NCBI GenBank assembly: GCA_025738555.1
Contig: JAOVFP010000016.1
Coordinates: 2,852,001-2,916,000 of the forward strand
Origin: Cyathus striatus
Lineage: Eukaryota; Basidiomycota; Agaricomycetes; Agaricales; Nidulariaceae
DNA length: 64,000 bases
Reading direction: 5' to 3'
Part shown: in pieces, positions 12,607-37,226 of the stretch
Numbering within the stretch: the stretch's first letter is position 1
Layout: each line of letters begins with the position of its first letter
Position numbers and translations under genes: made by a program
Notes under the pieces: model-generated
The model's input: only the letters and a program-made list of their open reading frames with translations
What the model was told of the DNA's origin: nothing
Databases searched by the model: none

Positions 12607-12845
12607 TGTTGCATGATGATGTATTAGTCATGTGACAGGTAGAGTCCCTGAGTATTCCATACATGCCTACCCAGTAATACACAGAGGCTCTTGGCAGGAA
12701 TAACACACTTGGTCCTTGGGTATATATAATACAACCCAACTTTCACTTGAACAAGACCATATAGCTCAGTTGGTTAGAGCACTCTGAAACTATCAGATAG
12801 GTCCCAGGTTCAAACCCTGGTGTGGTCACTTTGCTACATCTAATA
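12607..12845 (+). mobile_element. TRIM-1 solo LTR, 239 bp, with tRNA-like sequence
   Basis: It starts TGTTGCATGATG and ends CATCTAATA. A TATATATAAT box lies about 40 bp before a 73-nt tRNA-like segment at 12755-12827 (A box TAGCTCAGTTGG, B box GGTTCAAACCC). No TSD remains, and both flanks are LTR-B fragments in opposite orientation, so the site is rearranged. Confidence 0.9.
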
Positions 12846-12934
12846 CATACTTGACAGTTCTGTGATTGACAGATATGTGATTGACAGATTGACAGCTGTC
12901 AGTTACCTTAGTTACATGGACCTTGGTTAGGACT
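12846..12934 (+). mobile_element. Outer LTR-B, left part
   Basis: A forward LTR-B segment that begins at CATACTTGACAG (its first ~60 bp are missing) and is interrupted at GGACT by the gag-only element. It continues at 14915-15102. Confidence 0.85.
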
Positions 12935-13261
12935 TGTTAGATATTCAGGGTTGCACAGCTTCTTTGACAGCTGTCACTTGTCACCTGTCATACTTGACAG
13001 TTCTGTGATTGACAGATATGTGATTGACAGATTGACAGCTGTCAGTTACCTTAGTTACATGGACCTTGGTTGGGACTTTGGTAGACACCCTCAGTATATA
13101 TAAACACTCTGTAACTTGGTAGTAGTTAACAAGTTTCCTCCCCATCTTGTGTCTGTGTCAGTGTTTGTGTCTGAGTTATTTGCTCCCTTATCACCTTCCT
13201 TGCTCTTTATTATCCTCTATTCTCTCTCCATCCACCCCCTCTATTCTTGTTACTTCTGACA

Positions 13262-13274
13262 GGTTATGGGCCCC
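13262..13274 (+). promoter_or_regulatory. Primer-binding site, half-tRNA iMet type
   Basis: GGTTATGGGCCCC directly after the 5' LTR, identical to the Copia primer site at 5937. Confidence 0.85.
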
Positions 13275-13423
13275 GCCCCTCAATCTCTGCCACAACACAT
13301 TACCACTGCTTATTCACCAATCAACCTTTTTCAATTACAGCCCTCTGATTGTTCTGGTAGTCCCATTACAATTCATCATTCATTCCTTCATCACCAACCT
13401 CATCACTCCATTCATCACTCACT

Positions 13424-14515
13424 ATGTCTCTCAACAATGCTGCTGGACTTATGGCCAACATCCCCATCCTCACCTCCAACAACTGGCACTTATGGGTTAA
13501 AAAGATGAACATGTTCTTTTTAGGTGCAGGCATTGAAGGAGTCTCCTCTGACTCTCCTCCTGAAGATCCCACTGAATTGAAAAAGTGGAAGGCTCTAGAC
13601 AAACAGCTGGTGGCCTATATTTATGGCAAAGTCCATGATGACTACCAGTATCTTATTGAGGATCTCACATCTGGAAAGGCAGCTTGGGACACACTCAAAG
13701 GCCATTTTGAGAAGTCAACTGTTGGTACCAGGATGCAGTACAGGAAGGAGTTTTACAGTGTTCACCATGACACTGCCAAGCCCATTGACTTCTACATCCA
13801 GTCTGTTATTGCAGCTTCCAAGAAGCTCTCTGCATTAGGCTGCACCATTGACAACAACACTGAAGTTGTTGATGTTATTCTCATGAATCTAGATGAGTCC
13901 TTTCATTCCATTAGGACTGCCATTCTTGCCAGAAAGGATGATGTCACCTTGGAGGATTTGAAGGTTTTACTTAAGTCTGCCACTTCTGCAGATATGGACC
14001 CCACTTCCACTTCCATCTCTTCCATCTCTGGTCTTGCTGCTTCTACTCAGAGAAGACATGCATTTAGTGGTGTTACAGGTTCAGGTCATGATCACTCTGG
14101 TTCTGGTCATGGTCATCAAGGTGTTAGGTTTCAAGGACATGCAGGATCATCAGGATTAGGTGGGAGTCATGCAGGACCATCAGGATTAGGTGGGAGTCCT
14201 TCTCTAGTGGACTCCAAGGGTTTTAGATGGTGCAATCCCACTAATGAAGGGGCTTGCCATAGGTGTGGAAGAACTGGTCATGTTGCTGCTAGGTGCATGT
14301 ATGACATGCCTCAAGAGGTCAAGGATTGGATCATGTCCAACTCTTCTCACAACAGATCTATGCAGCAGGCCAATGCTGCTTATCATTTCTTGTCTTCACC
14401 CATTCACTCTCCCAGCAACTCCCCTCCTTCATCCCCTCATCTCAATGCATCTATGGCTAGACAGTATTTCTCTGGAGAGGCTAATGAAGGTTGGCCCCAC
14501 TCTATTGTTCTTTGA
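13424..14515 (+). CDS. Copia-type Gag protein, 363 aa
   Basis: An intact ORF encoding only a capsid/nucleocapsid-like protein. Residues about 1-190 form a UBN2-like gag region (NNWHLWVKKMNMFF near the start, TLKGHFEKSTVGTRMQY in the middle, then LNLDESF-type motifs). A Gly/His-rich linker follows, then a CX2CX4HX4C zinc knuckle (CHRCGRTGHVAARC, about 280) and a conserved tail (VKDWIMSNSSHNRSM). It stops at a TGA followed at once by non-coding sequence and the 3' LTR. The two other copies in the window share this architecture, so the missing pol is a property of the family. Reverse transcription would need proteins supplied by another element. Confidence 0.92.
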   Translation: MSLNNAAGLMANIPILTSNNWHLWVKKMNMFFLGAGIEGVSSDSPPEDPTELKKWKALDKQLVAYIYGKVHDDYQYLIEDLTSGKAAWDTLKGHFEKSTVGTRMQYRKEFYSVHHDTAKPIDFYIQSVIAASKKLSALGCTIDNNTEVVDVILMNLDESFHSIRTAILARKDDVTLEDLKVLLKSATSADMDPTSTSISSISGLAASTQRRHAFSGVTGSGHDHSGSGHGHQGVRFQGHAGSSGLGGSHAGPSGLGGSPSLVDSKGFRWCNPTNEGACHRCGRTGHVAARCMYDMPQEVKDWIMSNSSHNRSMQQANAAYHFLSSPIHSPSNSPPSSPHLNASMARQYFSGEANEGWPHSIVL

Positions 14516-14914
14516 TGGACTTTGGATTGTATGGACTTGTGTTGGATTAGGTGGGAGTTTGGTTGTACTAGCTGTGCAAGGTGGGAGTGTTAGATATTCA
14601 GGGTTGCACAGCTTCTTTGACAGCTGTCACTTGTCACCTGTCATACTTGACAGTTCTGTGATTGACAGATATGTGATTGACAGATTGACAGCTGTCAGTT
14701 ACCTTAGTTACATGGACCTTGGTTGGGACTTTGGTAGACACCCTCAGTATATATAAACACTCTGTAACTTGGTAGTAGTTAACAAGTTTCCTCCCCATCT
14801 TGTGTCTGTGTCAGTGTTTGTGTCTGAGTTATTTGCTCCCTTATCACCTTCCTTGCTCTTTATTATCCTCTATTCTCTCTCCATCCACCCCCTCTATTCT
14901 TGTTACTTCTGACA

Positions 14915-15102
14915 GGACTTTGGTAGACACCCTCAGTATATATATACACTCTGTAACTTGGTAGTAGACAACAAGTTTCCTCCCCATCTTGTGTCTGTGT
15001 TAGTGTTTGTGTCTGAGTTATTTGCTCCCTTATCACCTTCCTTGCTCTTATTATCTTCTATTCTCTCTCCATCCACCCTCTCTATTCTTGTTACTTCTGA
15101 CA
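14915..15102 (+). mobile_element. Outer LTR-B, right part
   Basis: Continues the LTR-B left off at 12934, from GGACTTTGGTAGAC to TTCTGACA. The gag-only element therefore inserted into a pre-existing LTR of its own family. Confidence 0.88.
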
Positions 15103-17041
15103 GTGATTACTTATGATATTGGATGTCAATGGTCTTAAAACCTGAAGCAATGAATTCAAACATATCCTGAGTCTATGAGAGTTCCTTCTGATATGCATAT
15201 TGATGTTGCAGTTCCTTCTTGGCATATCATTGGCCGTGGAAATTCATGTCAGAGCAACTTTGCATTAGCATATTTGCCAGGAGCTGGCCAAACTTGTGGA
15301 GAGGAAGTTGAAACCACATGGTCTAGTAGCAATCATCTTCACTCAAGTGCATGTGAAATGGGACCTGCATCTCGTCATGAAGTCTTAAATGACCAATGGA
15401 TTGCATAGAATTTCCAAAAACCATTGGATTTTATTAGTATATTCACTTTTACATTGTAATATATAACTGAATTAATTGTAGTAGGCAAACATTTTATCAA
15501 GTGATATGCTAAAGCCACTATAATGAGTGAAAAACAAAAACAAATATTTGACAAATTTAATGCTACATTTGAGACTTCTATCACTGCAGAATGGGAAGCA
15601 CAAGTAATAGCATGGAATATGGATCACACTAAACCAAACCCATATGATGATGACCCAGAGTGCAGTGAGTAAATTCTAATATTTTAAATTAAAGCTAACA
15701 ATCAGTTAACAACTACATTGCAGGATGTTAGACTAGAACTAACTCATGAAGATATAGCAAATACTGAAAAAGGAATTATTTCCAAGCCTAAACTAACTCT
15801 AACTAAGTTTTTAATTATAGGATTTGGGCTGGAAGAACAACAGTAAGTCTTGATATGTAACAAATATAAATATCTCATATTGTCATTTAGACATTTACTC
15901 AAAATTAAGGCTTCAAATCTGAAACATTCATCAGTATCAAAAGATCTTGCAGATCTTTATGATAAACAAGTTGTTCTTGCTAATAAAATTACTAAATGGC
16001 AAGAAGTTCAGCAAATATATATGCCTGAAGTAAAAGAACTATTAGCTTCCAACTCAGAGGAAAATACTTGCAAGTAACATGCCAGTAGAAACTGAGTTGG
16101 TTCCTTTATATCTTCCTTCAGCACTTCCAGCACATTTACTTATATCATCAACAATTAAAAAGGCAGCACAATCAGAATTAAAACTGCAATTTGCACAGGC
16201 AAATGATGCATTAGCGCTTACATTTGATGTCATCTTCAAATAATTTCAACAGTAAGACAATTTGAGCTGGAAAATACATCTGGTACTGAAAATAAACTAA
16301 ATACACATATGAAAGATTTGCATCAAGACTATAAAAATAAAGCACAGCCACATGTTGATTGCTACCAAAGAGCATGGGAAGCAGTATATTCACTGGATTC
16401 AAATAGAAATTGGCAATCATACTTGCTTAAACTGAGAAAAGAAGATATTCGGAGACCTGGACAGGATCCAGATGATATACTAAGCAGTGGGCGATTTGAA
16501 ATGTCATGGATTTGGCTGGTGCCATATAATTCATCAGGGGATAATGAGGAATATAATAGCTTTAAATTGGAATGGGTGAAAGCTCATGCATGAAAGGAAA
16601 GATGGCAAGAGGAAAAATTTATCTTGAGGGAGGAAATGCGATGAGTTATTGCATACTATGAATGGAAGAAAACTGGTGGAGAGGTATAACCAATATAAGA
16701 ATCTACAAAAATGATGTAGAATCTGATATAAAAGAGGGAGTCATGGCCTATACACTCAAACAAGCATCTATTTGTAAAAGACTAGTGCAGAGCTGTGCAG
16801 AACAGTAGTTACCTGTTTTTTAAAAGAATAGTTATACTCCTGATTGGGCTGAAGAATACAATACATCAATTTCAGGAACTTCAACTAGTCAGGACAGTGA
16901 AGATGATAATAATGATCCAAATGAAAATAATGAATATGGTGGAGGTGAAGATATTGAAGACAATGAGGAATATTGGCAGAATGAACTATCTGATAATAGT
17001 GGTGATGATCTGTACCAGAATGAGTATGGTAAGGCATTTTG
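15103..17041 (+). pseudogene. KDZ transposase, C-terminal half, decayed
   Basis: Matches the conserved C-terminal half of Kyakuja-Dileera-Zisupton transposases of Basidiomycota. Visible landmarks are TYDIGCQWS (catalytic Asp region) at the start, VPSWHIIG, LAYLPGAGQTCGEEVE (catalytic Glu region), MGPASRHEVLNDQWIA, then SITAEWEAQVIAWN. Downstream segments are separated by probable introns (for example 15667-15722 and around 15844-15892), followed by RPGQDPDDIL, VIAYYEWKKTGG and an acidic tail (DDNNDPNENNEYGG). The N-terminal CxC2-type cluster and first part of the core are missing, replaced by LTR-B. Several stops and a frameshift just after GCQWS show it is dead. The family is clear from motif order; exact exon borders are estimates. 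Confidence 0.85.
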
Positions 17042-17547
17042 ACTTCAGAATCTTATGCTTTGTTAATATTTGTGTTACTTTTTCCTTCTTACCCTGCCAG
17101 CCCCCTTTCCTTTCACATAACCTATTCTATTTATAACTTTCTTACTTACTCATCTGTTTCACACCTCTTACATGTTTCACTTCCATTACCCCTGGCCCCT
17201 TGCTCCCCTGGTTTGTCATACTATGAGCACAGACATTCTTACTCATACATGTTTCACCTTCATGATACCTGATGACTGTACCTCTGGCTTGTCATACCAA
17301 GTGCATGGACCATTTCCTTACTATAATGAAGTAGCATTGCATTAGACACATGAACCAAGCTTCTTTGTATAAATAGCTCATGTATTCTGATCAAACTTCC
17401 TCAGCTTGATCTTAATTTAGCTATCATCCAATATAGCTGGTACTCCTCTTCTGTATTGCAGACCTTCACCCTCTACTTCTATTTGCTTCTCAAGTGGTTA
17501 CTGTGAGAACACCACAAGTCCATTAGTGTGTACACCAAGTACAAATG
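17042..17547. other. Flank of KDZ remnant, no gene seen
   Basis: C/T-rich sequence with a TATAAATAG box at about 17370 and an LTR-like style downstream of it. No partner copy is visible in the window, so I cannot call an element. Confidence 0.3.
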
Positions 17548-17716
17548 TGTTAGATATTCTGGGTTGCACAGCTTCTTTGACAGCTGTCACATGTCACCTG
17601 TCATACTTGACAGTTCTGTGATTGACAGATATGTGATTGACAGTTCTGTAATTGACAGATATGTGATTGACAGATTGACAGCTGTCAGTTACCTTAGTTA
17701 TATGGACCTTGGTTGG

Positions 17717-18037
17717 TGTCAGAAGTAACAAGAATAAAGGAGGGTGGTTGAGAGGATAGAGAGTAATAAAGAGCAAGGAAGGTGATAAGGGAGCAAATAA
17801 CTCAGACACAAACACTGACACAGACACAAGATGGGGAGGAAACTTGTTTTCTACTACCAAGATACAGAGTGTTTATATACTGAGGGTGTCTACCAAAGTC
17901 CAACCAAGGTCCTGTAACTAAGGTAACTGACGGCTGTCAATCTGTCAATCACATATCTGTCAATCACAGAACTGTCAAGTATGACAGGTGACAAGTGACA
18001 GCTGTCAAAGAAGCTGTGCAACCCAGAATATCTAACA
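17717..18037 (-). mobile_element. Solo LTR-B inside LTR-B, TSD GTTGG
   Basis: A reversed LTR-B inserted at CTTGGTTGG of the outer LTR. GTTGG is duplicated at 17712-17716 and 18038-18042. Confidence 0.93.
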
Positions 18038-18148
18038 GTTGGGACTTTGGTAGACACTCTCAGTATATATAAACACTCTGTAACTTGGTAGTAGTTAACA
18101 AGTTTTCTCCCCATCTTGTGTCTGTGTCAGTGTTTGTGTCTGAGTTAT

Positions 18149-18471
18149 TGTTAGATATTCAGGGTTGCACAGCTTCTTTGACAGCTGTCACTTGTCACCT
18201 GTCATACTTGACAGTTCTGTGATTGACAGATATGTGATTGACAGATTGACAGCTGTCAGTTACCTTAGTTACATGGACCTTGGTTGGGACTTTGGTAGAT
18301 ACCCTCAGTATATAAACACTCTGTATCTTGGTAGTAGTTAACAAGTTTCCTCCCCATCTTGTGTCTGTGTCTGTGTTTGTGTCTGAGTCTTTGCTCCACT
18401 ATCACCCTCTTTGCTTCTTTATCACACTCTATTCTCTCAATCACCCTCCTTTATTCTTGTTACTTCTGACA
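18149..18471 (+). mobile_element. Second solo LTR-B inside LTR-B, TSD GTTAT
   Basis: A forward LTR-B inserted at GAGTTAT of the outer LTR. GTTAT is duplicated at 18144-18148 and 18472-18476. Confidence 0.93.
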
Positions 18472-18673
18472 GTTATCTGCTCCCTTATCACCTTCCTTGC
18501 TCTCTATTATTCTCTATTCTCTCTCCATCCACCCCCTCTATTCTTGTTACTTCTGACAAAATGTTTAGACTTTGACTTTGTTATATGACTGACTTACAAG
18601 TGTAGTGACAAGTTACATGAATAAAACATCACATTATCAAGATATCATGAGACCAGCTCAGATCATAACAATT

Positions 18674-18912
18674 TGTTGCATGATGATGTATTAGTCATGT
18701 GACAGGTAGAGTCCCTGAGTATTCCATACATGCCTACCCAGTAATACACAGAGGCTCTTGGCAGGAATAACACACTTGGTCCTTGGGTATATATAATACA
18801 ACCCAACTTTCACTTGAACAAGACCATATAGCTCAGTTGGTTAGAGCACTCTGAAACTATCAGATAGGTCCCAGGTTCAAACCCTGGTGTGGTCACTTTG
18901 CTACATCTAATA
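18674..18912 (+). mobile_element. TRIM-1 solo LTR with tRNA-like sequence, TSD CAATT
   Basis: A complete 239-bp TRIM-1 LTR, TGTTGCATG through CTAATA, flanked by CAATT at 18669-18673 and 18913-18917. This TSD fixes the LTR ends, so the terminal dinucleotides are TG and TA, not the usual TG and CA. The tRNA-like segment is at 18822-18894. Confidence 0.94.
18822..18894 (+). other. tRNA-like cloverleaf in TRIM-1 LTR
   Basis: 73 nt that fold as a tRNA: acceptor GACCATA with TGTGGTC, D arm GCTC/GAGC, anticodon arm CTCTG/CAGAT with a 7-nt loop AAACTAT, 5-nt variable loop, T arm CCAGG/CCTGG with TTCAAAC. The A box (TAGCTCAGTTGG) and B box (GGTTCAAACCC) are canonical. The loop lacks U33 and one anticodon-stem pair is broken, so it is probably not a translating tRNA. 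Isotype not assigned. Confidence 0.85.
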
Positions 18913-19399
18913 CAATTTACAACAGTGAATTAACAATGTAGCTTTGATGTTGACAGCTACATTAATATATAATTATAACTACCTCTCAGTTGTAGTATTT
19001 GATTAGAACCAATACATGAGTGTTATAACCTAAAATATTTATGCAATAGTAATATTCAATAAATCAAATTAATCATTGTTTATGATTATCTAATATATAC
19101 ATACAATAGTAATATTCAACTAAAACAAATCAATGATTGTTTATGATCATCATATATATACATACAATAGCAATATTCAATTAAAACAAATAAATGATTG
19201 TTTATGATCATCTAATATATATATACAATAGTAATATTCAATTAAAACAAACTAATGATTGTTTATGATTATCTAAAAGATACATACAATAGTAATATTC
19301 AATTAAAATAGACTAATGATTGTTTATGATCACTTAAAAGATACATGCAATGGTAATATTCAATTAAAACAAATCAATGATTGTTTATGATCACCTAAG

Positions 19400-19712
19400 T
19401 GTCAGAAGTAACAAAGAATAAGGAGTGTGGTAGAGAGAGAATAGAGGATAATGAAGAGCAAAGAGGGTGATAGTGGAGCAACACAAACACAGACACAGAC
19501 ACAAAAAGGGGAGGAAACTTATTGACAACTACCAAGTTACAGAGTGTTTATATACTGAGTAAGTCTACCAAAGTCCAACCAAAGTCCTGTAACTAAGGTA
19601 ACTGACAGCTGTCAATCTGTCAATCACAGAACTGTCAATCAAGTATCTGTCAAGTATGACAGGTGACAAGTGACAGCTGTCAAGGAAGCTGTGCAACTCA
19701 GAATATCTAACA
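19400..19712 (-). mobile_element. Solo LTR-B (subtype 2), TSD CTAAG
   Basis: A reversed LTR-B of the subtype with TGGG after TTAGATATTC and a TTCCTTGACAG start of the repeat block, inserted in the minisatellite. CTAAG is duplicated at 19395-19399 and 19713-19717. Confidence 0.92.
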
Positions 19713-19765
19713 CTAAGAGATACATACAATAGTAATATACAACTAAAACAAAACAATGATTGTTT

Positions 19766-20077
19766 TGTCAGAAGTAACAAGAATAAAGGAGGGTGATTGA
19801 GAGGATAGAGAGTAATAAAGAAGCAAGGAAGATGATGAGAGGGGAAATAACTCAGACACAAACACTGACACAGACACAAGATGGGGAGGAAACTTGTTTT
19901 CTACTACCAAGATACAGAGTGTTTATATACTGAGGGTGTCTACCAAAGTCCAACCAAGGTCCTGTAACTAAGGTAACTGACAGCTGTCAATCTGTCAATC
20001 ACATATCTGTCAATCACAGAACTGTCAAGTATGACAGGTGACAAGTGACAGCTGTCAAAGAAGCTGTGCAACCCTGA
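19766..20077 (-). mobile_element. Solo LTR-B, one end lost
   Basis: A reversed LTR-B whose outer ~12 bp at the right are replaced by minisatellite sequence at the shared word TGATTATCTAATA. This suggests a small deletion by microhomology. Confidence 0.85.
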
Positions 20078-20374
20078 TTATCTAATATATACATACAATA
20101 GTAATATTCAATTAAAATAGACCAATGATTGTATATGATCACCTAAAAGATACATACAATAGTAATATTCAACTAAAACATATCAATAATTGTTTATGAT
20201 CATCTAATACATACATACAATAGTAATATTCAATTAAAACAAATCAATGATTGTTTATGATCATCTGAAGTAAGTAGTATTCCAAATATGCATACAAAAA
20301 GACAATCATATATGCACCTGGCTTCTGTGATTGCCACATCATATATTCCTGCTACTCAATGATCAAAACTGCTG

Positions 20375-20605
20375 ACACCCCTCTGTGGTTCTAGGATTTA
20401 ACTGGCTCTCCCAATACAGTCTGTTGATTGACTGGATACAGAGATGCATACTTCACTTCCAAACCACTGTTACAGAGGAATCATCTCCACTTTCATCAAC
20501 ACCTGCTCTGAAGGATACTACTTCATTGCCACCTGCTTCATCAGATGAGACCTCATCTTCTCTGCCAGACTCATGTCCTCATCCAAGCATCTCTATGATT
20601 AATGC
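20375..20605 (+). pseudogene. Gypsy-1 protease/linker fragment
   Basis: Encodes VLGFNWLSQYSLLIDW, the conserved end of a Gypsy aspartic protease region, then a Ser/Pro linker ending in ISMINA. It continues at 22770 (INAAAFLQ) after removal of the inserted element. Gag and the protease active site are not visible upstream; the minisatellite takes their place. Confidence 0.8.
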
Positions 20606-20727
20606 AGTACTTTACCCTCCCCCCCAATTTCTGGATGGACTCCAGACAGACAAGAAAATGTCTGGAATTTCCGGGTGGACTCCATATGAAAACCAGATTT
20701 TCCAGATGGAATCCACATGGAATACAG

Positions 20728-24423: not shown

Positions 24424-24703
24424 TGTTAGCAACAGACAAGCAAAATGCTCAAAGTCAAACTCAAACACATAAATCAAAGGAGAAAAGTGAATCTTATTGC
24501 AAGTCTGGAATAAACTAGCACAATAATAGAGAATTAACTAATTAGAGAGACCATATTTATAGTAATTGTCCATGAGGAAATCACATGTACTTTAGCCTAC
24601 ACTACAACACATGTTACTGTGCTTCTACATTACAAACTCATGTACTATGTATGTAAAGAGCATGGCTGAACTGTGGAACTGTGCCCATAGTGTTAAAACT
24701 ATT

Positions 24704-24776
24704 GGACTGGACAGGGATTGAACCTGTGACCACCCGTACTCATGACTAGGCGCTCTTCCAACTGAGCTACCAGCCC
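24704..24776 (-). other. tRNA-like sequence in TRIM-2 LTR (3' copy)
   Basis: 73 nt on the reverse strand: acceptor GGGCTGG with CCAGTCC, D arm GCTC/GAGC, T arm ACAGG/CCTGT with TTCAATC, A box TAGCTCAGTTGG and B box GGTTCAATCCC. The anticodon stem (CCTAG/TACGG) pairs poorly, so a translating tRNA is unlikely. The same segment recurs at 25009-25081 in the other LTR. Confidence 0.85.
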
Positions 24777-25008
24777 TTGCCTATACACAAGCAAGAACAG
24801 GTACTTAACCAGTTGAGTGGGCTACCAGGCTCGTCACCATGGCAGGGGCGCTCCAATATTATACACCCCCATAACCCAGCCAAGGCTGTCAACCTTGCCA
24901 ATCCAACACACCCCCACAAGGAGACAGGCTCGTCACCATATCACCAAGAGAGGAAGTCTACACAGATACAAACACTGCGCTCGGGGCCCATAACCTGTTA
25001 AAACTATT

Positions 25009-25081
25009 GGACTGGACAGGGATTGAACCTGTGACCACCCGTACTCATGACTAGGCGCTCTTCCAACTGAGCTACCAGCCC
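25009..25081 (-). other. tRNA-like sequence in TRIM-2 LTR (5' copy)
   Basis: Second copy of the 73-nt tRNA-like segment, with the same boxes and stems, in the LTR next to the primer site. Confidence 0.85.
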
Positions 25082-25576
25082 TTGCCTATACACAAGCAAG
25101 AACAGGTACTTAACCAGTTGAGTGGGCTACCAGGCTTGTCACCATGGCAGGGGCGCTCCAATATTATACACCCCCATAACCCAGCCAAGGCTGTCAACCT
25201 TGCCAATCCAACACATAGTCTTGATGAATAACATATGTTGATATGCATGGTGTCCGCATTGTGTGTCACATGACTAATCACATGACAAGATAAGATAAGA
25301 TATCAGAGAATTAGATAAGATAAGGACAAGATCCTAACATTTACCTCCTCTTTAAGAGTTGTGCCCTCATGATATTTCCAAAGTTTCTTCAAGCTGACAT
25401 AAGCATTGATTTTGTCGTTGTCAGTCTTGGAATCAATAAAGAAGGTGTACAAGCCAAGGGGAGATGGCAAATGCAAATAAAAAGGTGAAAAGGATGAAAA
25501 GAACAGAAATGATAATGAGTGTTTGGCTAGAATCCATGATGGGAATAATAATTTTATTGGTACTAAAGTGATATAT

Positions 25577-27580: not shown

Positions 27581-29214
27581 GAATTAACATTTTCATCAAG
27601 GAATTTGTCAAGTTGTTTTTGTTCATCTAGATTCAATGAATAAATCTTACAGTCAAATGATGTGGCTCCTGGTAATAATTCAATTGCATGATCCCAAGGT
27701 CTCCTCAGTGGACATTTGTTGAATGATTCCTTTGTGAATACCTTTTCGAATTCATGATAATACATCAGAACTATTTCTTTCCAATACTTCTTTGGTTTTT
27801 GCTGATTTTGTGCTTCAGCAATTTTCGAAGCAATTGTTTGAAAAGCCCTTAATTCAATTTGTTCAAAAATATTTATGGCAATAATTTGATCATCAGATTC
27901 AAGATTTATGGGTTCATCTAAATCTGATTCATCTTCCTCAGGATTCATGGTGTTGATCAACAGGGTACATTCTATTGGGCAACATGTAAATTTAATTGAT
28001 CCTTCCTTCCAATCTATTTCTGGATTGTGAATTTTAAGCCAATTGTGACCAATAAATATAGAAGCCTTTCCAAGATTTGAGATGGAAAATTGAAGAATTT
28101 CCATATGTCTTCCAAGTCTGACTCAGAGTTCAACATAATCTGTGATTGCTCCATCACTATTTAAGGTACTGTCCACATTATAAACAGGAGTTGGTCTGGG
28201 AAACTTCTTTGTTGTGATTTGATTGTTTTCAATAAACTTTCAATCAATACAAGTTCTGGTGCTTCCACTATCAAATAATGCTTTAAGACTGTATGTCCTT
28301 TGAGTGTCCAGGATAGTCACCATTAGATTGAGATCCATCTGGTTTCCTTTGGATCCTCAAATAAATCTTTTCAGCTTTGATAATTCCTCTAACACTTGAA
28401 CTACATCTTGATCTGAAGGATCATTCAGTTCTTCAATTGTTTTCGTGTCAGAAGTAACAAGAATAAAGGAGGGTGATTGAGAGAATAGAGTGTGATAAAG
28501 AAGCAAAGAGGGTGATAGTGGAGCAAAGACTCAGACACAAACACAGACACAGACACAAGATGGGGAGGAAACTTGTTTTCTACTACCAAGTTACAGAGTG
28601 TTTATATATACTGAGGGTGTCTACCAAAGTCCCAACCAAGGTCCATGTAACTAAGGTAACTGACAGCTGTCAATCTGTCAATCACATATCTGTCAATCAC
28701 AGAACTGTCAATCAAGGATCTGTCAATCACAGAACTGTCAAGTATGACAGGTGACAAGTGACAGCTGTCAAAGAAGCTGTGCAACCCTGAATATCTAACA
28801 TTTCGGAGTTACTTCTAGTTTCCATTTTGAATGTGTCCAAATACTAAGTGAAGCCAGGGCAAGTTCCAATATTTGGTCTTTTAATCTCCATGCAACTCAA
28901 TACATGTTTTCTAGTTTTACTTCCTGATTAGGGAAGGTGTGCTGAGATTTCTTTTCCTTTAATGATATGAACTCAGATTCAGATCTAATGTAGGTACAGT
29001 TACATGAGAAGAAACATAAATAGAGACTGGCGAGTTCACACTCACTGCTGGCCCTGGGGAAAACCCTATTGGCTCATCAGTAAGGCATGTTGCTCTTCCA
29101 ATAATTCTGGTAAGGTAGGTAATTCTACTATTCTACTCATAGATGCTACTGGTATAGGATTATTTACATAGGTGTCCATATTGTTATTATGCTGTACATA
29201 AAGGCCTTGGTTTG
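27581..29214 (-). pseudogene. Gypsy-2 protease region and RT leader, decayed
   Basis: Reverse-strand reading: the segment after the zinc knuckle (GLYVQHNNNMDTYV, LPTLPELLEEQ), then past a solo LTR-B the aspartic protease (LFDSGSTRTCID; IFIGHNWLKIHNPEIDW), an acidic linker and the RT leader (YHEFEKVF, HAIELLPGATSFDCKIYSL, EQKQLDKFLDEN). At 27581 the frame passes, without the solo LTR, directly into QQARWS of the RNase H end, so about 350 residues of RT and RNase H are missing in frame. Stops occur at CID-K and FI-GS. Confidence 0.88.
28446..28800 (-). mobile_element. Solo LTR-B, TSD TTTCG
   Basis: A reversed LTR-B of the long-repeat form. TTTCG is duplicated at 28441-28445 and 28801-28805. 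Confidence 0.93.
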
Positions 29215-29445
29215 AGCTCTTTACACTGAGCCATGTGTTCTATATGGATCCACATGGATTATGAAGATTCCATATGGAATCTGTGCAAATTCTGTAATTA
29301 GTAAATTGGCTGAGACTTTACTTTAAATTTGTAATTATTCCACACAGATTCCTTACAGAATCTGTACAGATTGGTAAATTCTGTATGGAATACGCAGAAT
29401 TCCATAACAAAGACTTACACAGAATCTGTATGGACCTCTTATCTT
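29215..29445. repeat. KDZ-2 left subterminal word array
   Basis: Short near-palindromic words recur irregularly: CATATGGAATCTG, ACAGAATCTGTA, CTGTATGGAAT. The same words fill 56120-56280 at the right end. Confidence 0.75.
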
Positions 29446-29479
29446 ATCTGTATTTATCATATGTATTATGTAAAATAAC

Positions 29480-29566
29480 ATACCATAGCATGAATTGAAC
29501 CCTTAGCCTCCAATTGCTTTGTCAGCAAACATATGGCATGCTAAACCAGCTGAGCCAACACAGCCT
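29480..29566 (-). other. tRNA-like A/B-box segment in KDZ-2 left arm
   Basis: On the reverse strand an A box (TTGGCTCAGCTGG) is followed about 50 nt later by a B box (GGGTTCAATTC). The middle is longer than in a normal tRNA. KDZ-1 carries a comparable segment in the same position, so this may be a fixed part of these elements or a tRNA-derived SINE head. Confidence 0.5.
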
Positions 29567-29998
29567 TTAGACATAACCACTGACTATGTCACATGTCATC
29601 ACTGTCACTGGCCATCGGTGACTGGTGACTGGTGCCAGTGACGCATCACCACTGTGCTTCTCACCGTCGTCACTCTCCACCCCCACTATTATCACTCTCC
29701 ACCCCTACTTGGGTCCCTTGTCCTTTGCCACCTTGCTCGATGACAACGCCCACATTTCATTGCTCACCCTTGTCCCTTGCTGAAAAGGGGTATTTGTGTT
29801 CTAGTAGTGAAATTGGCTCTAAGTTTGCAACTTACTTCACTACAAAATTCACAAATCTCTTAAAATGCGAGAGGGGTTTGAGGTGGGTGTAGCCTCTTAT
29901 TGTCTTATGTATTCTTCAATTGTTTAGAAGCCAAATGAACTGAAAAACACTAGAATTTTATTGGAGAATTTAAGTAATACACCCTTTGTACTACTTCA
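29567..29998. other. C-rich start of KDZ-2 interior, no gene seen
   Basis: CTCGATGACAACG and CACTCTCCACCCC words resemble the block at 32.37-33.2 kb and the KDZ-1 block at 38.5-40.7 kb. No coding frame was recognised. Confidence 0.4.
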
Positions 29999-30281
29999 TG
30001 TGAGATGTGGAACCAGGACAGTGACCTGCAGGACTGAGAGAGACAATAGAGTCTGAAGTCCAATGTACAGTGAGCAAGTGGGGATTGCCACTGTAGGACC
30101 TCAGGATTATATACTACTAGCTTATCTACCAAAGTCCGAGGGTCTAAGGGTCCAAGGGTCCAAGGGTCCAACCAAGGTCTAAGGGTCCAACCAAGGTCCC
30201 AATCCAGGTCCAGTACCTAAGTTTACCTAAGTCTACCTAAGGTTCATTAGTCAGCAGAGAAGTGTCAGATCACTTCTAACA
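29999..30281 (-). mobile_element. LTR-A copy, reversed
   Basis: A reversed LTR-A ending CTTCTAACA on +. It meets a forward, 5'-truncated LTR-A almost directly (30283), forming an inverted pair. Confidence 0.88.
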
Positions 30282-30282
30282 C

Positions 30283-30490
30283 CTTAGACCCTCGGACTTT
30301 GGTAGATAAGCTAGTAGTATATAATCCTGAGGTCCTACAGTGGCAATCCCCACTTGCTCACTGTACATTGGACTTCAGGTAAGCTGTACACATACTACTT
30401 CAATCTAACACTTGCTCACTGTACATTGGACTTCAGACTCTATTGTCTCTCTCAGTCCTGCAGGTCACTGTCCTGGTTGTACATCTCACA
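30283..30490 (+). mobile_element. LTR-A copy, 5' truncated, fused to TRIM-1 interior
   Basis: Forward LTR-A from CCTTAGACCCTCGG to CATCTCACA. It is followed at once by primer site GGTTATGGGCCCC (30491-30503) and TRIM-1, not Copia, internal sequence. Confidence 0.88.
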
Positions 30491-30836
30491 GGTTATGGGC
30501 CCCGAGCACTACACTGTGTGTGGGAATCTGCTTATTCAGCAAAGTGTCTCATGGTCACGTGATCCAAAGTCACAAGACCTGCCACATCAGGGGAGAGTGT
30601 TGCATGATGATGTATTAGTCATGTGACAGGTAGAGTCCCTGAGTATTCCATACATGCCTACCCAGTAATACACAGAGGCTCTTGGCAGGAATAACACACT
30701 TGGTCCTTGGGTATATATAATACAACCCAACTTTCACTTGAACAAGACCATATAGCTCAGTTGGTTAGAGCACTCTGAAACTATCAGATAGGTCCCAGGT
30801 TAAAACCCTGGTGTGGTCACTTTGCTACATCTAATA
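30491..30836 (+). mobile_element. TRIM-1 interior plus 3' LTR
   Basis: The 107-bp interior (30491-30597) begins with the primer site and ends in the polypurine tract AGGGGAGAG. The 239-bp LTR with tRNA-like segment (30746-30818) follows. The B box here reads GGTTAAAACCC, one base off consensus. The 5' LTR of this element has been replaced by LTR-A. Confidence 0.9.
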
Positions 30837-31312
30837 GAAGGAATGTGGATGGGTGGGAAGAAGGAAGGTGATAAGTTGTAGTGGATATCCCAGAACAACA
30901 GTAGTCCAAAGATGCAAAGTAGAGGTTGATCTGACAAGCAAGCAAGCAGTTAAAGCTTGGGGCCCATAACCTGTGAGATGTGGAACCAGGACAGTGACCT
31001 GCAGGACTGAGAGAGACAATAGAGTCTAAAGTCCAATGTACAGTGAGCAAGTGTTAGATTGAAGTAGTATGTGTACAGCTTACCTGAAGTCCAATGTACA
31101 GTGAGCAAGTGGGGATTGCCACTGTAGGACCTCAGGATTATATACTACTAGCTTATCTACCAAAGTCCGAGGGTCTAAGGGTCCAAGGGTCCAAGAGTCC
31201 AACCAAGGTCTAAGGGTCCAACCAAGGTCCCAACCCAGGTCCAGTACCTATGTTTACCTAAGTCTACCTAAGGTTCATTAGTCACCAGAGAAGTGTCAGA
31301 TCACTTCTAACA
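30837..31312 (-). mobile_element. Reversed LTR-A (30972-31312) with truncated Copia leader
   Basis: On the reverse strand a full-length 341-bp LTR-A is followed by primer site GGTTATGGGCCCC (30959-30971) and about 120 bp resembling the Copia leader at 5950-6080. It is then cut by TRIM-1 at 30836. No gag start remains. Confidence 0.88.
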
Positions 31313-32369
31313 CTTCAAACCCTGTAGAAGTGACTAACAAATCTTTTACCAGGACAACTTCTTAGAAAACCGAAAAAGAGCAAGTATTTACTCTTTATGA
31401 AACTGCTTTATTGAAAACACTAAGTCCTAGGCCCTCACTGGTGTCTCAGAACTTCAGAACTTTCCAAAAATACCCAAAATGCAAACCAAAACAATTCTAT
31501 ATCTTTGAAACAAAAAGACCTAAACCACTACCCAATACATATTGTACCTGGGCAAGAAAGGCACTATTCTGCTTGCCCTTTTACCCTCTATAGTACCTAC
31601 TTAAATACAGGAAACAGAGCAGTATTACTAAGAGTTCTTCAGACATTGTATACTACATATATGTACATGAAACACTTCCCTGTCCTTTACCTGTATCTTT
31701 CAATCATATGTCATTTGGAGCTGAGTAAACCCGAAGTATTAGGACACTCTAGACTACTCAGTCCTCTTATTTTCAGGTGGTATAGTGTCTTACTCTGTGT
31801 CACTCTGGGCAGATAATAATAAAACATCTACTTGTGTCCGATGTTTACCCCTATCCTGGTCCGGACTTCGGTGAGATCATGTCCTATAGTACTTGTAGTA
31901 CTAGAATAGAATGTACTTGACTCCAGCTCTAGAATGAGACCAGAATCATCCAGATTGATGAAGAATTGACCATTCTATTCCACTCTGAAATATTCATTAA
32001 TTCATATTTATTTCATTGACTATTTGTTAGACTTTAATCCTGATGCCAAACAAACAACTTAGTGGTATCAAAATGAAATGAAATCATATACAAGTCATGT
32101 GACTGGCAGAAAAGGGGTCCTTTCAATATTCAATATCTTTTCCTACACACCAGGCTAATGGTAGGTTGGACATGAAAGCACTTGTACTCTGTTTTATGTT
32201 GTAGACAGTTGAATATTAACCCAAATTAGAAGGGTAATAAGTACAATGCTTGCTAAATTGTAGCAGTCCATGGATCTTTATTTATTATCTGGGGTTCTTC
32301 AATGTGTACAGATTTAATACTGTAAATGGTAGAAATGCACAATTTTACACCTATATGCACAGGTGGTGT
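31313..32369. other. No gene recognised
   Basis: AT-rich sequence with a few short frames of no recognisable family. No TSD-bounded element found. Confidence 0.35.
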
Positions 32370-33215
32370 CACATTGCCACCTCACTCGACAGCAACATCA
32401 CCACGTCAATGCCACAGTTTGTCACCCCCCCTCATCCCTCACCACCTCGCTCGATGACAACATCATCACATCAACGCCCATGCTTTGCCACCCCCCTCTC
32501 GTCCCCGCCACCTCACCTTGCAAATGATGAGCATGTGGCTTCTCTCTCCCCTCTGCACCTCATCTGGCAAATGACAAGGTGCTGTTCTGCCTTCCCCCTC
32601 CACCTCATCTTGCAAGTGACGACGTGTTTCATCTCCTCCCCATCCCCTTGCACCTCATCTAGCAAATGATGAGGTGCTGTTCATCCTCCTCCCCCTGCAC
32701 CTCATCTGGCAAGTGACAAGGTGGTGCTCATCCTCCCCCTCCTTGCACCTCGTCTGGCAAACAATGAGGTGTCATTCATCCTCTGCCCCCTGCACCTCAT
32801 CTTGCAAGTGACGAGGTGCTGTTCATCCTCTCCCCCTGCATTTCGTCTCGCAAGTGACAAGGTGTTTTGTCTCCTCCCCACCCCCTGCACCTTGTCTGGC
32901 ACTTCTCCCTCCACCTTGTCTCCTCCCCATCCCCTTGCACCTTGTCTGGCAAATGACAAGGTGTTATGTCTCCTCCCCTTGCACCTCATCTGGCAAATGA
33001 TGAGGTGCCATTCTGCCTTCCCCCTGCACCTTGTCTCACAAGTGATGAGGTGCTATTCTGCCTTCCCCCTGCACCTTGTCTCGCAAGTGATGAGGTGTTC
33101 TGTCTCCTCCCCCCCCTGCACCTTGTCTGGCAAATGACAGGGTGCTGTTCTCTCCTCTCCCCTTACCTCCTTGTCTTGCAAGCGATGAGGAAGAGCATCC
33201 TCTCCCCCCTCCTCT
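32370..33215 (+). repeat. C-rich degenerate minisatellite
   Basis: About 15 copies of a 45-60 bp unit built on CACCTCATCTGGCAAATGA and CCCCCTGCACC. The same core (GCAARTGAYRAGG) recurs at 38.64-39.14 kb inside KDZ-1. The long frames across it are repeat artefacts. Confidence 0.8.
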
Positions 33216-33660
33216 GCCTCCTCATCTCAGGGAGGAGAGGGGAGAGTGAAGGAAGGGAAGGGGAAAAGCAAGGGGAGGGGAGAGCAAGGAGAGGGAGGAG
33301 AGAGGAAGGGGGAGGATGGGGGAGAGGAGGGGTGAGCGATGGGAGAGGAGGGAGGGGGGAAGAGGGGGGAGGGGATCGGGGGAGAGGAGGGAAGGGGATC
33401 AGGGGAAGAGGAGGGGAGGGGATAGCAAAGGGATAGGATAGCAAAGGGAGAGAATAGCAAAGGGGACAGCAAAGGAAGTGGGTCAAGGGGAGGGGAGGGG
33501 ACAGCAAGGGAAGGGGAGCAGAGGGGAGGGGTTGCCATCTTGCTGCCATAGTGAAGGATGGAGAGGGATAGTGAAGGATGGGGAGGGATAACAAGGGATG
33601 GGGAGGGACAGAAAGGGATGGGGACAGTGAGGAGAGGGAAGGGGATGGTGACAGATCCCA
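33216..33660 (+). repeat. Purine-rich tract
   Basis: Almost pure A/G on +, built of GGGGAGGGGA and GGATGGGGAGGGA words, directly following the pyrimidine-rich block. Reverse-strand Pro/Ser/Leu-rich frames here are not genes. Confidence 0.8.
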
Positions 33661-34266
33661 TCATCACCCCCCTTTGACGTCCTCCCCCTTGATGTGCACT
33701 ACTGCCCACATACATGTGTTGTTGCACCCATTTTCCCCCCCCTCTACCCATTGTTGCCTGCCATTCAGTATATTGTAGACTAGTGTACTTACATAGAAAT
33801 ATGTACCATATAGATACAAAGACAATACATATAGTTATGATATTCATTCAGAGAAGTGCTACAGTGAGATTCCAGATACAAAGACAATACATAAAATTAT
33901 GATATTCATTCAGATGTGTTACAGTGAGATTCCTGTTGTGATGACAGACTTCCCTGAAAGCTCATTTATATTTATGTATGATCACTTGCTATCAAAGTTT
34001 GTATGTGTAGGCGATTTCACATTGAATTGCCTACATCTTATTTTTGTGCTCATCAACATTGTGATTGCTTACATTTTTCTCTCACACTTCATTTGCTTAA
34101 TCAATCAACATTGTCATCACTCATGCTGTTCCCTTATACTATTTATAGATTAGCTGTCAAATTATGATATCATGTACACAGGAATAAAAATAAATGGTGT
34201 GAACATTCTGTTGCCTTTAGATCTTCACATGCCTCATCCCTCTTTCTCTTCCTTACCACTATCATC
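33661..34266. other. No gene recognised
   Basis: AT-rich, with a short direct duplication (AGATACAAAGACAATACAT near 33815 and 33875). No family recognised. Confidence 0.35.
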
Positions 34267-34580
34267 TGTTAGAAGTGATCTGACACTTCTCTGGTGACTA
34301 ATGAACCTTAGGTAGACTTAGGTAAACTTAGGTACTGGACTGGGTTGGGACTTGGTTGGACCCACCTTGGTTCCTTGGACCCTCAGACTTTGGTAGATAA
34401 GCTAGTAGTATATAATCCTGAGGTCCTACAGTGGCAATCCCCACTTGCTCACTGTACATTGACTTCAGGTAAGCTGTACACATACTACTTCAATCTAACA
34501 CTTGCTCACTGTACATTGGACTTCAGACTCTATTGTCTCTCTCAGTCCTGCAGGTCACTGCACTGGTTGTACATCTCACA
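34267..34580 (+). mobile_element. Solo LTR-A
   Basis: A forward LTR-A from TGTTAGAAGTGATC to CATCTCACA, with small internal deletions. The flanking pentamers (TCATC and CATAC) do not match, so the TSD is lost. Confidence 0.88.
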
Positions 34581-34706
34581 CATACCACTCACAAATCCAC
34601 TACATCAGAACATATCAGAGCTCACTTCAACATATCATGCACAGATATACTAGGAACAAATCTCAGTGTTAATGCCACTACAATCAGTGGCAATACTGAC
34701 AATTCA

Positions 34707-36655
34707 TGTCAGAAGTAACAAGAATAGAGGGGGTGGATGGAGAGAGAATAGAGGATAATAAAGTAAGCAAGAGAAGGTGATAAGGGAGCAAATAACTCAG
34801 ACACAAACACTGACACAGACACAAGATGGGGAGGAAACTTGTTAACTACTACCAAGATACAGAGTGTTTATATACTGAGGGTGTCTACCAAAGTCCCAAC
34901 CAAGGTCCATGTAACTAAGGTAACTGACAGCTGTCAATCTGTCAATCACATATCTGTCAATCACAGAACTGTCAAGTATGACAGGTGACAAGTGACAGCT
35001 GTCAAAGAAGCTGTGCAACCCTGAATATCTAACACTCCCACCTTGCACAGCTAGTACAACCAAACTCCCACCTAATCCAACACAAGTCCATAGAAACCAA
35101 AGTCCATCAAAGAACAATATGGGAAGAAGGTCCATACTGAGTTCTAGCAGCAGAAGCAGAAATATAGGGAGAGGGAGGTGGAGAATTACTTGGAGAGTGA
35201 ATGGGGGAAGAGAGGAAATGATAAGCAGAGTTGGCCTGCTGCATGGATCTATTATGAGAAGAGTTGGACATAATCCAATCCTTGACTTCCTGAGGCATGT
35301 CATACATGCACCTAGCAGCAATATGACCAGTCCTTCCACACCTATGACAAGCACCCTCATTTGTGGGATTGCACCATCTAAAACCCTTGGAATCCACTGG
35401 AGTAGGACTCCCACCTAATCTTGATGACCCTGTATGTCCCTGAGATCTAACACCTGAATGACCTTGACCAGAACCTGAATGACCATGACCAAAACCTGAA
35501 TGATCATGACCAGAACCTGTAAATCCACCAAAAGCATGCTTCCTCTGAGCAGAAGCAGCAAGTCCAGAAATGGGGGCAAGAGAAGTGGAAGTGTGATCCA
35601 CATCTGCAGAAGTGGCAGACTGGAGTAGAACCTTCAACTCCTCCAAAGTAAGTTCCTCCTTCCTAGCAAGAATGGCAATCCTAGTGGAATGGAAGGATTC
35701 ATCCAAATTCATAAGAATGACATCAACAACTTCTGTGTCATTATCAATCTTGCAGCCAAGACCAGTGAGCTTCTTGGAAGCTGCAACAACAGACTGAATG
35801 TAGAAATCAATAGGCTTGGTAATGTCATGGTGAACACTGTAGAACTCCTTCCTGTACTGCATCCTGGTACCAACAGTAGACTTCTCAAAATGGCCCTTGA
35901 GTGTGGCCCAAGCTTCCCTGCCAGACACCAGATCCTCTACAAGGTACTGGTATTCATCATGAATCTTGGCATAGATATAGGCAACCAGCTGCCTGTCAAC
36001 AGCTTTCCACTGTTTCAATTCCTTGGGATCTTTAGGAGGAGACCCAGAGGAGACCCCTGTAATGCCTGCACCTAAAAAGAACATGTTCATCTTTTTAACC
36101 CATAAGTGCCAGTTGTTGGAAGTGAGGATGGGAATATTGGCCATAAGTTCAGAAGCATTGTGGAGAGACATGGTGAATGATGACTGGAAATAAAAAGATT
36201 GATGGTGTAGGAATGAATGATGAATTGTAATGGGACTACCAGAACAATCAGAGGACTGTAATTGAAAAAGGTTGATTGGTGAATAAGCAGTGGTAATATG
36301 TTGTGGCAAAGATTAAAAGGCGGGGCCCATAACCTGTCAGAAGTAACAAGAATAAAGGAGGGTGGTTGAGAGGATAGAGAGTAATAAAGAGCAAGGAGGT
36401 GATAGGGAGCAAATAACTCAGACACAAACACTGACACAGACACAAGATGGGGAGGAAACTTGTTTACTACTATCAAGATACAGAGTGTTTATATACTAAG
36501 GGTGTCTACCAAAGTCCCAACCAAGGTCCATGTAACTAAGGTAACTGACAGCTGTCAATCTGTCAATCACATATCTGTCAATCACAGAACTGTCAAGTAT
36601 GACAGGTGACAAGTGACAGCTGTCAAAGAAGCTGTGCAACCCTGAATATCTAACA
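34707..36655 (-). mobile_element. Gag-only LTR element 2 (TR-GAG-like, LTR-B family)
   Basis: Reverse orientation: 5' LTR 36335-36655, primer site 36322-36334 (GGTTATGGGCCCC on the reverse strand), gag ORF, GGTGGGAG purine tract, 3' LTR 34707-35034. Flanks ATTCA and ATTCC match at 4 of 5, but the left and right flanks belong to different sequences (unknown versus TRIM-1), so rearrangement is possible. Confidence 0.9.
35107..36171 (-). CDS. Copia-type Gag protein, 354 aa
   Basis: An intact reverse-strand ORF homologous along its length to the gag at 13424-14515. It has the same start region (NNWHLWVKKMNMFF), the DTEVVDVILMNLDESF motif, a Gly/His-rich linker with HSGSGQGHSG-type repeats, the zinc knuckle CHRCGRTGHIAARC and the VKDWIMSNSSHNRSM tail. 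The frame stays open upstream to 36309, but the ATG at 36171 aligns with the start of the other copies and is preferred. No pol follows; the stop lies 72 bp before the 3' LTR. Confidence 0.9.
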   Translation of the reverse strand: MSLHNASELMANIPILTSNNWHLWVKKMNMFFLGAGITGVSSGSPPKDPKELKQWKAVDRQLVAYIYAKIHDEYQYLVEDLVSGREAWATLKGHFEKSTVGTRMQYRKEFYSVHHDITKPIDFYIQSVVAASKKLTGLGCKIDNDTEVVDVILMNLDESFHSTRIAILARKEELTLEELKVLLQSATSADVDHTSTSLAPISGLAASAQRKHAFGGFTGSGHDHSGFGHGHSGSGQGHSGVRSQGHTGSSRLGGSPTPVDSKGFRWCNPTNEGACHRCGRTGHIAARCMYDMPQEVKDWIMSNSSHNRSMQQANSAYHFLSSPIHSPSNSPPPSPYISASAARTQYGPSSHIVL

Positions 36656-36857
36656 ATTCCTGCCAAGAGCCTCTGTGTATTACTGGGTAGGCATATATGG
36701 AATACTCAGGGACTCTACCTGTCACATGACTAATACATCATCATGCAACACTCTCCCCTGATGTGGCAGGTCTTGTGACTTTGGATCATGTGACCGTGAG
36801 ACACTTTGCTGAATAAGCAGATTCCCACACACAGTGTAGTGCTCGGGGCCCATAACC
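36656..36857 (-). mobile_element. TRIM-1 3' LTR fragment and complete interior
   Basis: 36656-36750 is part of a reversed LTR. 36751-36857 is the 107-bp interior, with polypurine tract reversed (CTCTCCCCT) and primer site at 36845-36857. With the adjacent LTR it shows the TRIM-1 plan: LTR, primer site, about 85 bp, polypurine tract, LTR. Confidence 0.9.
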
Positions 36858-37226
36858 TATTAGATGTAGCAAAGTGACCACACCAGGGTTTGAACCTGGG
36901 ACCTATCTGATAGTTTCAGAGTGCTCTAACCAACTGAGCTATATGGTCTTGTTCAAGTGAAAGTTGGGTTGTATTATATATACCCAAGGACCAAGTGTGT
37001 TATTCCTGCCAAGAGCCTCTGTGTATTACTGAGTATTCCATATATGCCTATCCAGTAATACACAGAGGCTCTTGGCAGGAATAACACACTTGGTCCTTGG
37101 GTATATATAATACAACCCAACTTTCACTTGAACAAGACCATATAGCTCAGTTGGTTAGAGCACTCTGAAACTATCAGATAGGTCCCAGGTTCAAACCCTG
37201 GTGTGGTCACTTTGCTACATCTAATA
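36858..37226. mobile_element. Inverted TRIM-1 LTR pair (174-bp arms)
   Basis: 36858-37031 is a reversed LTR and 37053-37226 a forward one, nearly perfect inverted copies with a 21-bp spacer. Both carry the tRNA-like segment (36876-36948 reverse and 37136-37208 forward). The left LTR serves as 5' LTR for the interior at 36751-36857. Confidence 0.9.

Follow-up and report, generated by a model that had tools for sequence, protein, structure and literature searches.

The closest described relatives of the element reported here are the fungal Helenus elements of the TRIMp3 group (Kojima, 2024, PMC10886601). According to the accessible part of that paper, they are terminal-repeat retrotransposons in miniature (TRIMs), mostly below 1 kb, whose long terminal repeats (LTRs) include a tRNA-like part bearing boxes A and B, and which are flanked by 5-bp target site duplications (TSDs), have a primer site mostly matching the anticodon loop of the initiator-Met tRNA, occur as several families per genome and are likely moved by copia elements; two Agaricomycetes appear in its Table 1 and a third (Amylostereum) in its text. 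In a 64-kb stretch of the Cyathus striatus genome (contig JAOVFP010000016.1, positions 2,852,001 to 2,916,000; hereafter the window), we characterized a TRIM, designated TRIM-1, which agrees with Helenus in these respects and is a new family of this known class. TRIMs with a tRNA-like part in the LTR had already been published, and the novelty that the preliminary description of this DNA had ascribed to the class was thus not upheld. With a probability of about 0.72, the sequence evidence suggests that TRIM-1 is a Helenus-type, 585-bp non-coding element that relies on the copia family of the same window for its copying and integration in trans.

TRIM-1 is a real, young and very short non-coding retrotransposon, whose full length of 585 bp consists of a 107-bp interior between two 239-bp LTRs of the TG...TA type, starting with TGTTGCATG and ending with CTACATCTAATA (585 bp in four of the five full elements and 586 bp in the other). 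The window contains four full LTRs, two truncated LTRs, two small pieces and two interiors. The full LTR at 12607..12845 (+ strand) has no TSD; it holds the TATA box TATATATAAT at 12721..12730 and the tRNA-like part at 12755..12828, with box A TAGCTCAGTTGG at 12762-12773 and box B GGTTCAAACCC at 12807-12817. Two solo LTRs lie at 18674..18912 (+ strand, TSD CAATT, tRNA-like part 18822..18895) and at 46243..46481 (- strand, TSD TATTC on the + strand, tRNA-like part 46260-46333), and a fragment of LTR positions 1-39 (39 nt) lies at 3953..3991 (+ strand). The fourth full LTR, at 30598..30836 (+ strand, tRNA-like part 30746..30819, with one box B base changed), follows an interior at 30491..30597 (+ strand), which begins with the primer site GGTTATGGGCCCCGAGC (30491-30507) and ends with the polypurine tract AGGGGAGAG (30589-30597). 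This interior is itself preceded by a piece of a copia LTR (LTR positions 133 to end; 30282..30490, + strand), and the copy is accordingly a hybrid with a copia 5' LTR. The remaining parts form an inverted composite at 36656-37226, composed of LTR positions 1-95 (36656..36750, - strand, 95 nt), an interior (36751..36857, - strand), LTR positions 62-239 (36858..37035, - strand, tRNA-like part 36875-36948) and, in the opposite orientation, LTR positions 42-239 (37029..37226, + strand, tRNA-like part 37136-37209).

These assignments were largely in agreement with the preliminary description, which had proposed a second TRIM family with its own 239-bp LTR, the two TSDs (both exact), and, at 30491 and 36751, an interior of 107 bp that includes the primer site and polypurine tract. 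Its six full or near-full LTR copies are all present, four of them full and two (36858-37035 and 37029-37226) truncated, and the tRNA-like segment does occupy one place in the LTR, being 74 nt long and ending 17 nt before the LTR end instead of 73 nt and 18 nt. The copy at 30598 proved to have a genuine LTR and interior without being a plain TRIM, and the copies at 36858 and 37030, given as two neighboring LTRs, are TRIM-1 LTRs belonging to the composite; the 95-nt and 39-nt pieces were additional to its list. Separately, junctions between an LTR end and an internal part of a different LTR, some in inverted orientation, were seen at 30281/30282, 36655/36656, 37226/37227 and in a locus outside the window (L073:267), and at 30281/30282 the absent LTR part was not found on the other side; such junctions may be products of auto- or inter-element integration.

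As the preliminary description had proposed, copies were collected genome-wide, from the 107.45-Mb, 24-contig assembly in which the window lies on contig C16. A 43-nt U3 pattern matched 57 places with up to three mismatches (51 exactly, five with one and one with two mismatches), and a 40-nt tRNA pattern matched 58 (52 exactly, three with one, two with two and one with three mismatches), while the reversed patterns gave no match. The tRNA pattern adjoined 54 of the 57 U3 places; at four places it occurred without a U3 match at the same stringency, including the full LTRs of L054 and L068 and LTR positions 121-239 of L055. Exact 5-bp TSDs flanked 23 of 28 full solo LTRs, four of five full elements and two of three full-length hybrids, whereas none of 756 pairings between flanks of different solo loci was identical; these counts exclude the truncated L055, L063, L082, L045 and L073, the window copies at 30282 and 36656, and 12 further places. 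A small RNA-gene-like part within a short repeat might also recall a short interspersed nuclear element or a 5S-type Cassandra element. Against such an identity, which we regard as exceedingly improbable, stand the two LTRs, the primer site, the polypurine tract and the 5-bp TSDs, as well as the Rfam search of the window at the gathering score, in which all eight hits were tRNA and none was 5S.

The helper of a TRIM is usually deduced from a common primer site or common termini, and here hybrid insertions and a common insertion geography provide independent evidence for it. Among 11 TRIM-1 interiors retaining the primer-site end, six were preceded by a TRIM-1 LTR (the ordinary elements L003-L006 and L008, and the inverted composite) and five by a copia LTR (the window copy at 30282, L002, L007, L073 and L077), with the junction located exactly at the primer site in all five. 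The copia LTR was complete in three hybrids, namely L007 (TSD GTTAA), L077 (TSD CCCCT) and L002 (no TSD), and the perfect 5-bp TSDs of two of the three indicate that these integrated as units. Compared with the best-scoring other LTRs within the retrieved loci, the hybrid copia LTRs were 99.7% (L007), 97.5% (L002), 97.7% (L073) and 99.5% (window) identical, and that of L077 was 93.8% identical to the best-scoring one and up to 95.8% to the next. Because the copia LTRs have different nearest relatives, and the variants carried by the hybrid interiors are also present in ordinary TRIM-1 copies, the hybrids must have originated on more than one occasion. One more interior, the twelfth and an older one (L045), is preceded by 20 bases equal to the LTR end of a gag-only element described below and lacks 11 primer-site bases. 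A single TSD enclosing two different LTRs would be explained most simply by the transfer of copia plus-strand strong-stop DNA onto the TRIM-1 minus strand, and the hybrids fit such a transfer to TRIM cDNA within a shared particle.

Alternatively, the hybrids might be derived from separate copia and TRIM-1 copies by ectopic recombination, gene conversion or nested insertion in repeat-rich islands, since copies of both crowd the same islands, the window and L073 hybrids have a truncated copia LTR and lie in composites, L002 has no TSD, and a junction region of approximately 29 nt, as judged by eye, is common to copia and TRIM-1. We consider this origin unlikely, because matching 5-bp TSDs lie outside the copia LTR on one side and the TRIM-1 LTR on the other in L007 and L077, against the 0/756 of the control, and because all five junctions fall on the exact primer site. 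The reciprocal junction of a TRIM-1 LTR with a copia interior was likewise absent among six TRIM-LTR/primer-site junctions found with at most one mismatch, all of which enter the TRIM-1 interior, using a pattern that would miss the older LTR type with an indel at the LTR end.

The probable autonomous partner of TRIM-1 is the family of the full copia element at 5611..10809 (+ strand), whose open reading frame (ORF) has gag, integrase and RVT_2 domains; its TSD, GTAAT, was read by eye one base inside the element end used at first, and its two LTRs are only 94.5% identical. The interior start GGTTATGGGCCCCGAGC is identical in TRIM-1, this copia element (from 5937) and TRIM-2, the other TRIM of the window, and the gag-only element has GGTTATGGGCCCCG of the primer site in common with TRIM-1 and copia. 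The anticodon arm of the host initiator-Met tRNA reads GCGCAGTGGTAGCGCGCGGGGCCCATA (17 pattern hits, none in the control; the bases 3' of CATA were omitted from the pattern because an intron may follow), and the 11-nt TATGGGCCCCG of the primer site was complementary to 15 of the 17 hits over 11 nt and to the other two over 9 nt. The last dozen LTR bases were also alike, reading TACATCTAATA in TRIM-1 and CACATCTCACA, TACATCTCACA or TACATATTACA in the hybrid copia LTRs. As a separate observation, GTACATCTAATAGATTATGGGCCC at L045:5126-5149 (G000 C13:2701126) combines a TRIM-1-like LTR end with a primer site beside a copia-like LTR stretch that is 76% alike; it is possibly a relic of the LTR that gave TRIM-1 its tail.

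TRIM-2 lies at 24691..25213 (- strand) and comprises 218-bp LTRs (24996-25213 and 24691-24908, with tRNA-like parts at 25008-25081 and 24703-24776, - strand) around an 87-bp interior, flanked by the TSD CTATG. Eight genomic hits spanning query positions 1-510, with a ninth, partial hit uncounted, each contained both TRIM-2 LTRs, and therefore none of these eight copies is a hybrid. An apparent head-to-tail array of TRIM-2 with a shared LTR was also noticed (G000 C9:611314-612127).

The distribution of insertions likewise tied TRIM-1 to copia. After merging the U3 and tRNA matches, 44 of 55 TRIM-1 loci lay within 50 kb of one of 30 copia reverse transcriptase (RT) loci, although such regions make up 1.76% of the genome, and four of the remaining 11 cluster at C23:318-351 kb. 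The corresponding figures were 20/38 for the gag-only element and 17/40 for TRIM-2 (Fisher p = 0.0002 versus TRIM-1), the latter comparison being rough because the TRIM-2 set represents the best-scoring 40 of 488 candidates, with one 38-base match dropped. Contigs with several TRIM-1 loci have most of them gathered in one stretch; on some (C1, C3, C6 and C8) a single locus lies apart, and C2 and C20 each carry two isolated loci at different places. We refer to these repeat islands as putative centromeres only because the TRIM-1 loci gather in one stretch per contig. Members of an older subfamily, which have a change in common at LTR site 232, occur outside the islands (L054, L055, L079 and L081) and also inside them (L047, L053, L073 and L077).

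We next consider the tRNA-like part. Both ARAGORN and Rfam recognized a tRNA in each of the six window LTRs (Rfam 48.7-50.8 bits, cut-off 29), and both boxes of Helenus, A (TRGCY..YGG) and B (GGTTC), are present as TAGCTCAGTTGG and GGTTCAAACCC. Scores of 39.2-50.9 bits were obtained for each of 12 further loci picked to include more diverged copies. All 57 U3 places retain this part, 54 as judged by the 40-nt pattern and three by reading (L066, 49.3 bits; L045, 39.2 bits; and L050), where small indels or more changes are present. The preliminary description had named frequent loss of the segment, or its decay faster than the rest of the LTR, as observations that would refute its reading, and neither was seen. 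Faster decay was rejected by comparing 43 full LTRs with the 12607 copy, which gave 0.0088, 0.0041 and 0.0137 substitutions per site in U3, the tRNA-like part and the tail, respectively, 22 of the 56 U3 substitutions being at one site. In 12 lower-identity copies, two of which have no LTR end, the rates with site 56 omitted were 0.0175, 0.0102 and 0.0391, and the difference between U3 and the tRNA-like part (p = 0.18) does not prove constraint. Within each of the five full elements, the two LTRs are distinguished by 0-3 of their 239 sites, and the family is thus too young for this kind of test to prove constraint. Boxes A and B had no substitution in the 12 lower-identity copies and five among all 43 full LTRs.

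As for its origin, the tRNA-like parts of TRIM-1 and TRIM-2 were 67.6% identical to each other, and 67.6% and 68.9% identical, respectively, to the host tRNA-Ile. The best host match of the TRIM-1 part was tRNA-Ile-AAT together with a near-identical locus called Val by ARAGORN, within a set of the 30 best-scoring of 61 Rfam matches listed from the scored part of 5359 candidates, a set which leaves most other tRNA types outside the comparison. The mutual identity is no higher than that to tRNA-Ile and fits a common origin as well as separate ones, so that it speaks neither for nor against the earlier statement that a tRNA-like unit was acquired or kept twice. The part might also be, or yield, a functional tRNA or tRNA fragment, considering that its Infernal score matches that of some host tRNA genes and that its centroid fold is cloverleaf-like. 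This appears very improbable: position 33, directly before the anticodon, is U in functional tRNAs but A in the two families, TRIM-1 and TRIM-2, which makes tRNA function unlikely, and the minimum-energy structure is not a cloverleaf and not clearly better than those of shuffled sequences (z -1.14).

A role as a promoter for RNA polymerase III (Pol III) is more plausible, and the tRNA-like part is probably such a promoter. TATAW occurred at -30..-26 in seven of the 30 best-scoring host tRNA loci and at no other position within -45..-20, and the upstream AT content of 26 regions, with near-duplicates removed, showed a local peak of 0.72 at -30..-26 against 0.49-0.51 at -40..-31, with higher values at -10..-1 (0.75-0.77). 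The TRIM-1 box TATATATAAT covers -34..-25 from the tRNA-like 5' end and thus overlaps the TATA position of host tRNA genes. On the other hand, a run of at least four T was present within 40 nt downstream in all 30 host genes (at least five T in 27) and, for 19 of 29 distinct genes, already in the first 20 nt, while no run of four T occurs anywhere in the 585 bp of TRIM-1, which consequently has no normal Pol III terminator; such absence is only mildly unusual, being seen in 7% of shuffled sequences as well. In TRIM-2, a single TTTT lies close to each LTR end. The start geometry of TRIM-1 is therefore tRNA-gene-like and its termination is not.

The preliminary description had placed an RNA polymerase II (Pol II) start at the TATA box, a claim without support insofar as the TATA position in host genes makes a Pol III promoter of the tRNA-gene type an equally good or better fit. 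Transcription by Pol II in an otherwise identical element with the same partner, in which the tRNA-like part would be situated in R, either as a passenger or with a role in RNA structure, packaging or strand transfer, nevertheless has to be weighed. A start near the tRNA-like 5' end would suit a TATA box approximately 30 nt before it, TRIM-1 lacks the T4 terminator, and the copia and gag-element LTRs also bear TATATA in mid-LTR, so that the TRIM-1 box may have been inherited as a Pol II element. We hold this alternative to be somewhat doubtful in view of the intact boxes A and B in the 12 lower-identity copies, the host-like TATA spacing, the retention of a tRNA-like part near the LTR end by two families with unrelated LTRs, and the box conservation in Helenus given in the accessible part of PMC10886601; we would put Pol III ahead of Pol II at about two to one. 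The same text holds that Pol III transcription of Helenus cannot be concluded without experiment.

Taken together, we propose that the tRNA-like part and the TATA box at about -30 would act as a tRNA-gene-like Pol III promoter producing TRIM-1 RNA, which, without a four-T run in the element, would continue into the flank and end at a T run there. This RNA would enter particles together with copia RNA, and a fragment of the initiator-Met tRNA would serve as its primer. For a hybrid to arise, copia plus-strand strong-stop DNA, comprising U3-R-U5 and the primer site, would anneal to the primer-site end of the TRIM-1 minus strand in place of TRIM-1's own, and copia integrase would insert the product.

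Several observations weigh against this proposal. One of the three full hybrids, L002, has no TSD, and the copia LTRs of the window and L007 hybrids are 99.0% alike and nearest to one and the same third LTR, so that these two may share a source and not be independent. No similarity between TRIM-1 and copia was detected beyond the primer site and the last dozen LTR bases, and TRIM-2, with the same primer site, has 17 of 40 places near copia and no hybrid among its eight complete copies; the primer site alone therefore does not decide the partner. With regard to the promoter, a clear TATA box is present in only seven of the 30 host tRNA genes, TRIM-1 is devoid of T4, and TATATA is shared with the copia and gag-element LTRs.

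A stronger version, in which TRIM-1 often completes its cDNA with copia strong-stop DNA, hybrids being a regular by-product of co-packaging, and in which the pair also repeatedly seeds TFIIIC-binding promoters into centromeres, is speculative and rather improbable. In fission yeast, centromeric tRNA genes act on centromeric chromatin; if the stronger version were true, the seeded tRNA-gene-like promoters could act in a similar manner. The hybrids also open a specific step of reverse transcription, the second strand transfer between co-packaged genomes, to testing in a fungus. Furthermore, TRIM copies inflate tRNA gene counts in such genomes, as described for rust fungi in the accessible part of Kojima (2024, PMC10886601).

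Apart from these elements, the window contains non-autonomous, gag-only copia-type elements with the same primer site start at 12929-14920, 34701-36661 and 47570-49553; Pfam found Retrotran_gag_2 alone in the ORF, and the LTRs at 12935 and 14588 are 100% identical over 329 bp. A long AAGGGA hexanucleotide array lies beside GAT and GAG runs at 52043-52346, and an ORF at 54337-55053 has a CxC6 cysteine cluster associated with KDZ transposases. In a protein comparison, the top match by E-value was a Lupinus protein (44% identity), while the most similar records (60-67%) included two named fungi, Taiwanofungus and Sparassis, at 65%; taken with the CxC6 ORF, this makes an Agaricomycete host likely.

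Neither the insertion geography nor the copia-LTR hybrids of TRIM-1 were found in the accessible text on Helenus (PMC10886601), and copia-LTR/TRIM hybrids and common islands were likewise not found in the accessible parts of PMC10886601, PMC5668417, PMC11302176, PMC9744471 and PMC1950507. At the level of titles and abstracts, with most of the subscription literature outside the search, we found no published description of TRIM/copia LTR hybrids or of centromeric TRIMs with tRNA parts. For the joint niche, the accessible part of PMC11302176 describes RLG_Cereba and RLG_Quinta in einkorn centromeres, an autonomous/non-autonomous pair which, like copia and TRIM-1, has a common primer site, LTR termini and chromosomal niche; the non-autonomous partner in einkorn codes for GAG, whereas TRIM-1 is non-coding and the centromere identity is here only inferred. 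In Cassandra, the RNA terminates within the 5S portion of the 3' LTR (PMC10886601, accessible part), while TRIM-1 has no T run. Cassandra and Ajax resemble TRIM-1 in holding a part of a small RNA gene in a TRIM LTR, and differ in that this part is 5S, which Rfam did not find in the window, instead of tRNA-like.

With respect to the hybrids, LTR swapping was reportedly described in soybean by Du et al. in 2010 and may be a close precedent. Chimeric insertions with one flanking TSD have been ascribed to template switching between packaged genomes (Sabot and Schulman, 2007, PMC1950507), and hybrid LTRs have been described for Onsen (PMC5668417). In the accessible parts of both papers, the complex insertions are three-LTR complexes or mosaics within one family, whereas a TRIM-1 hybrid has a single interior bounded by two dissimilar LTRs, one belonging to an autonomous element and the other to a TRIM.

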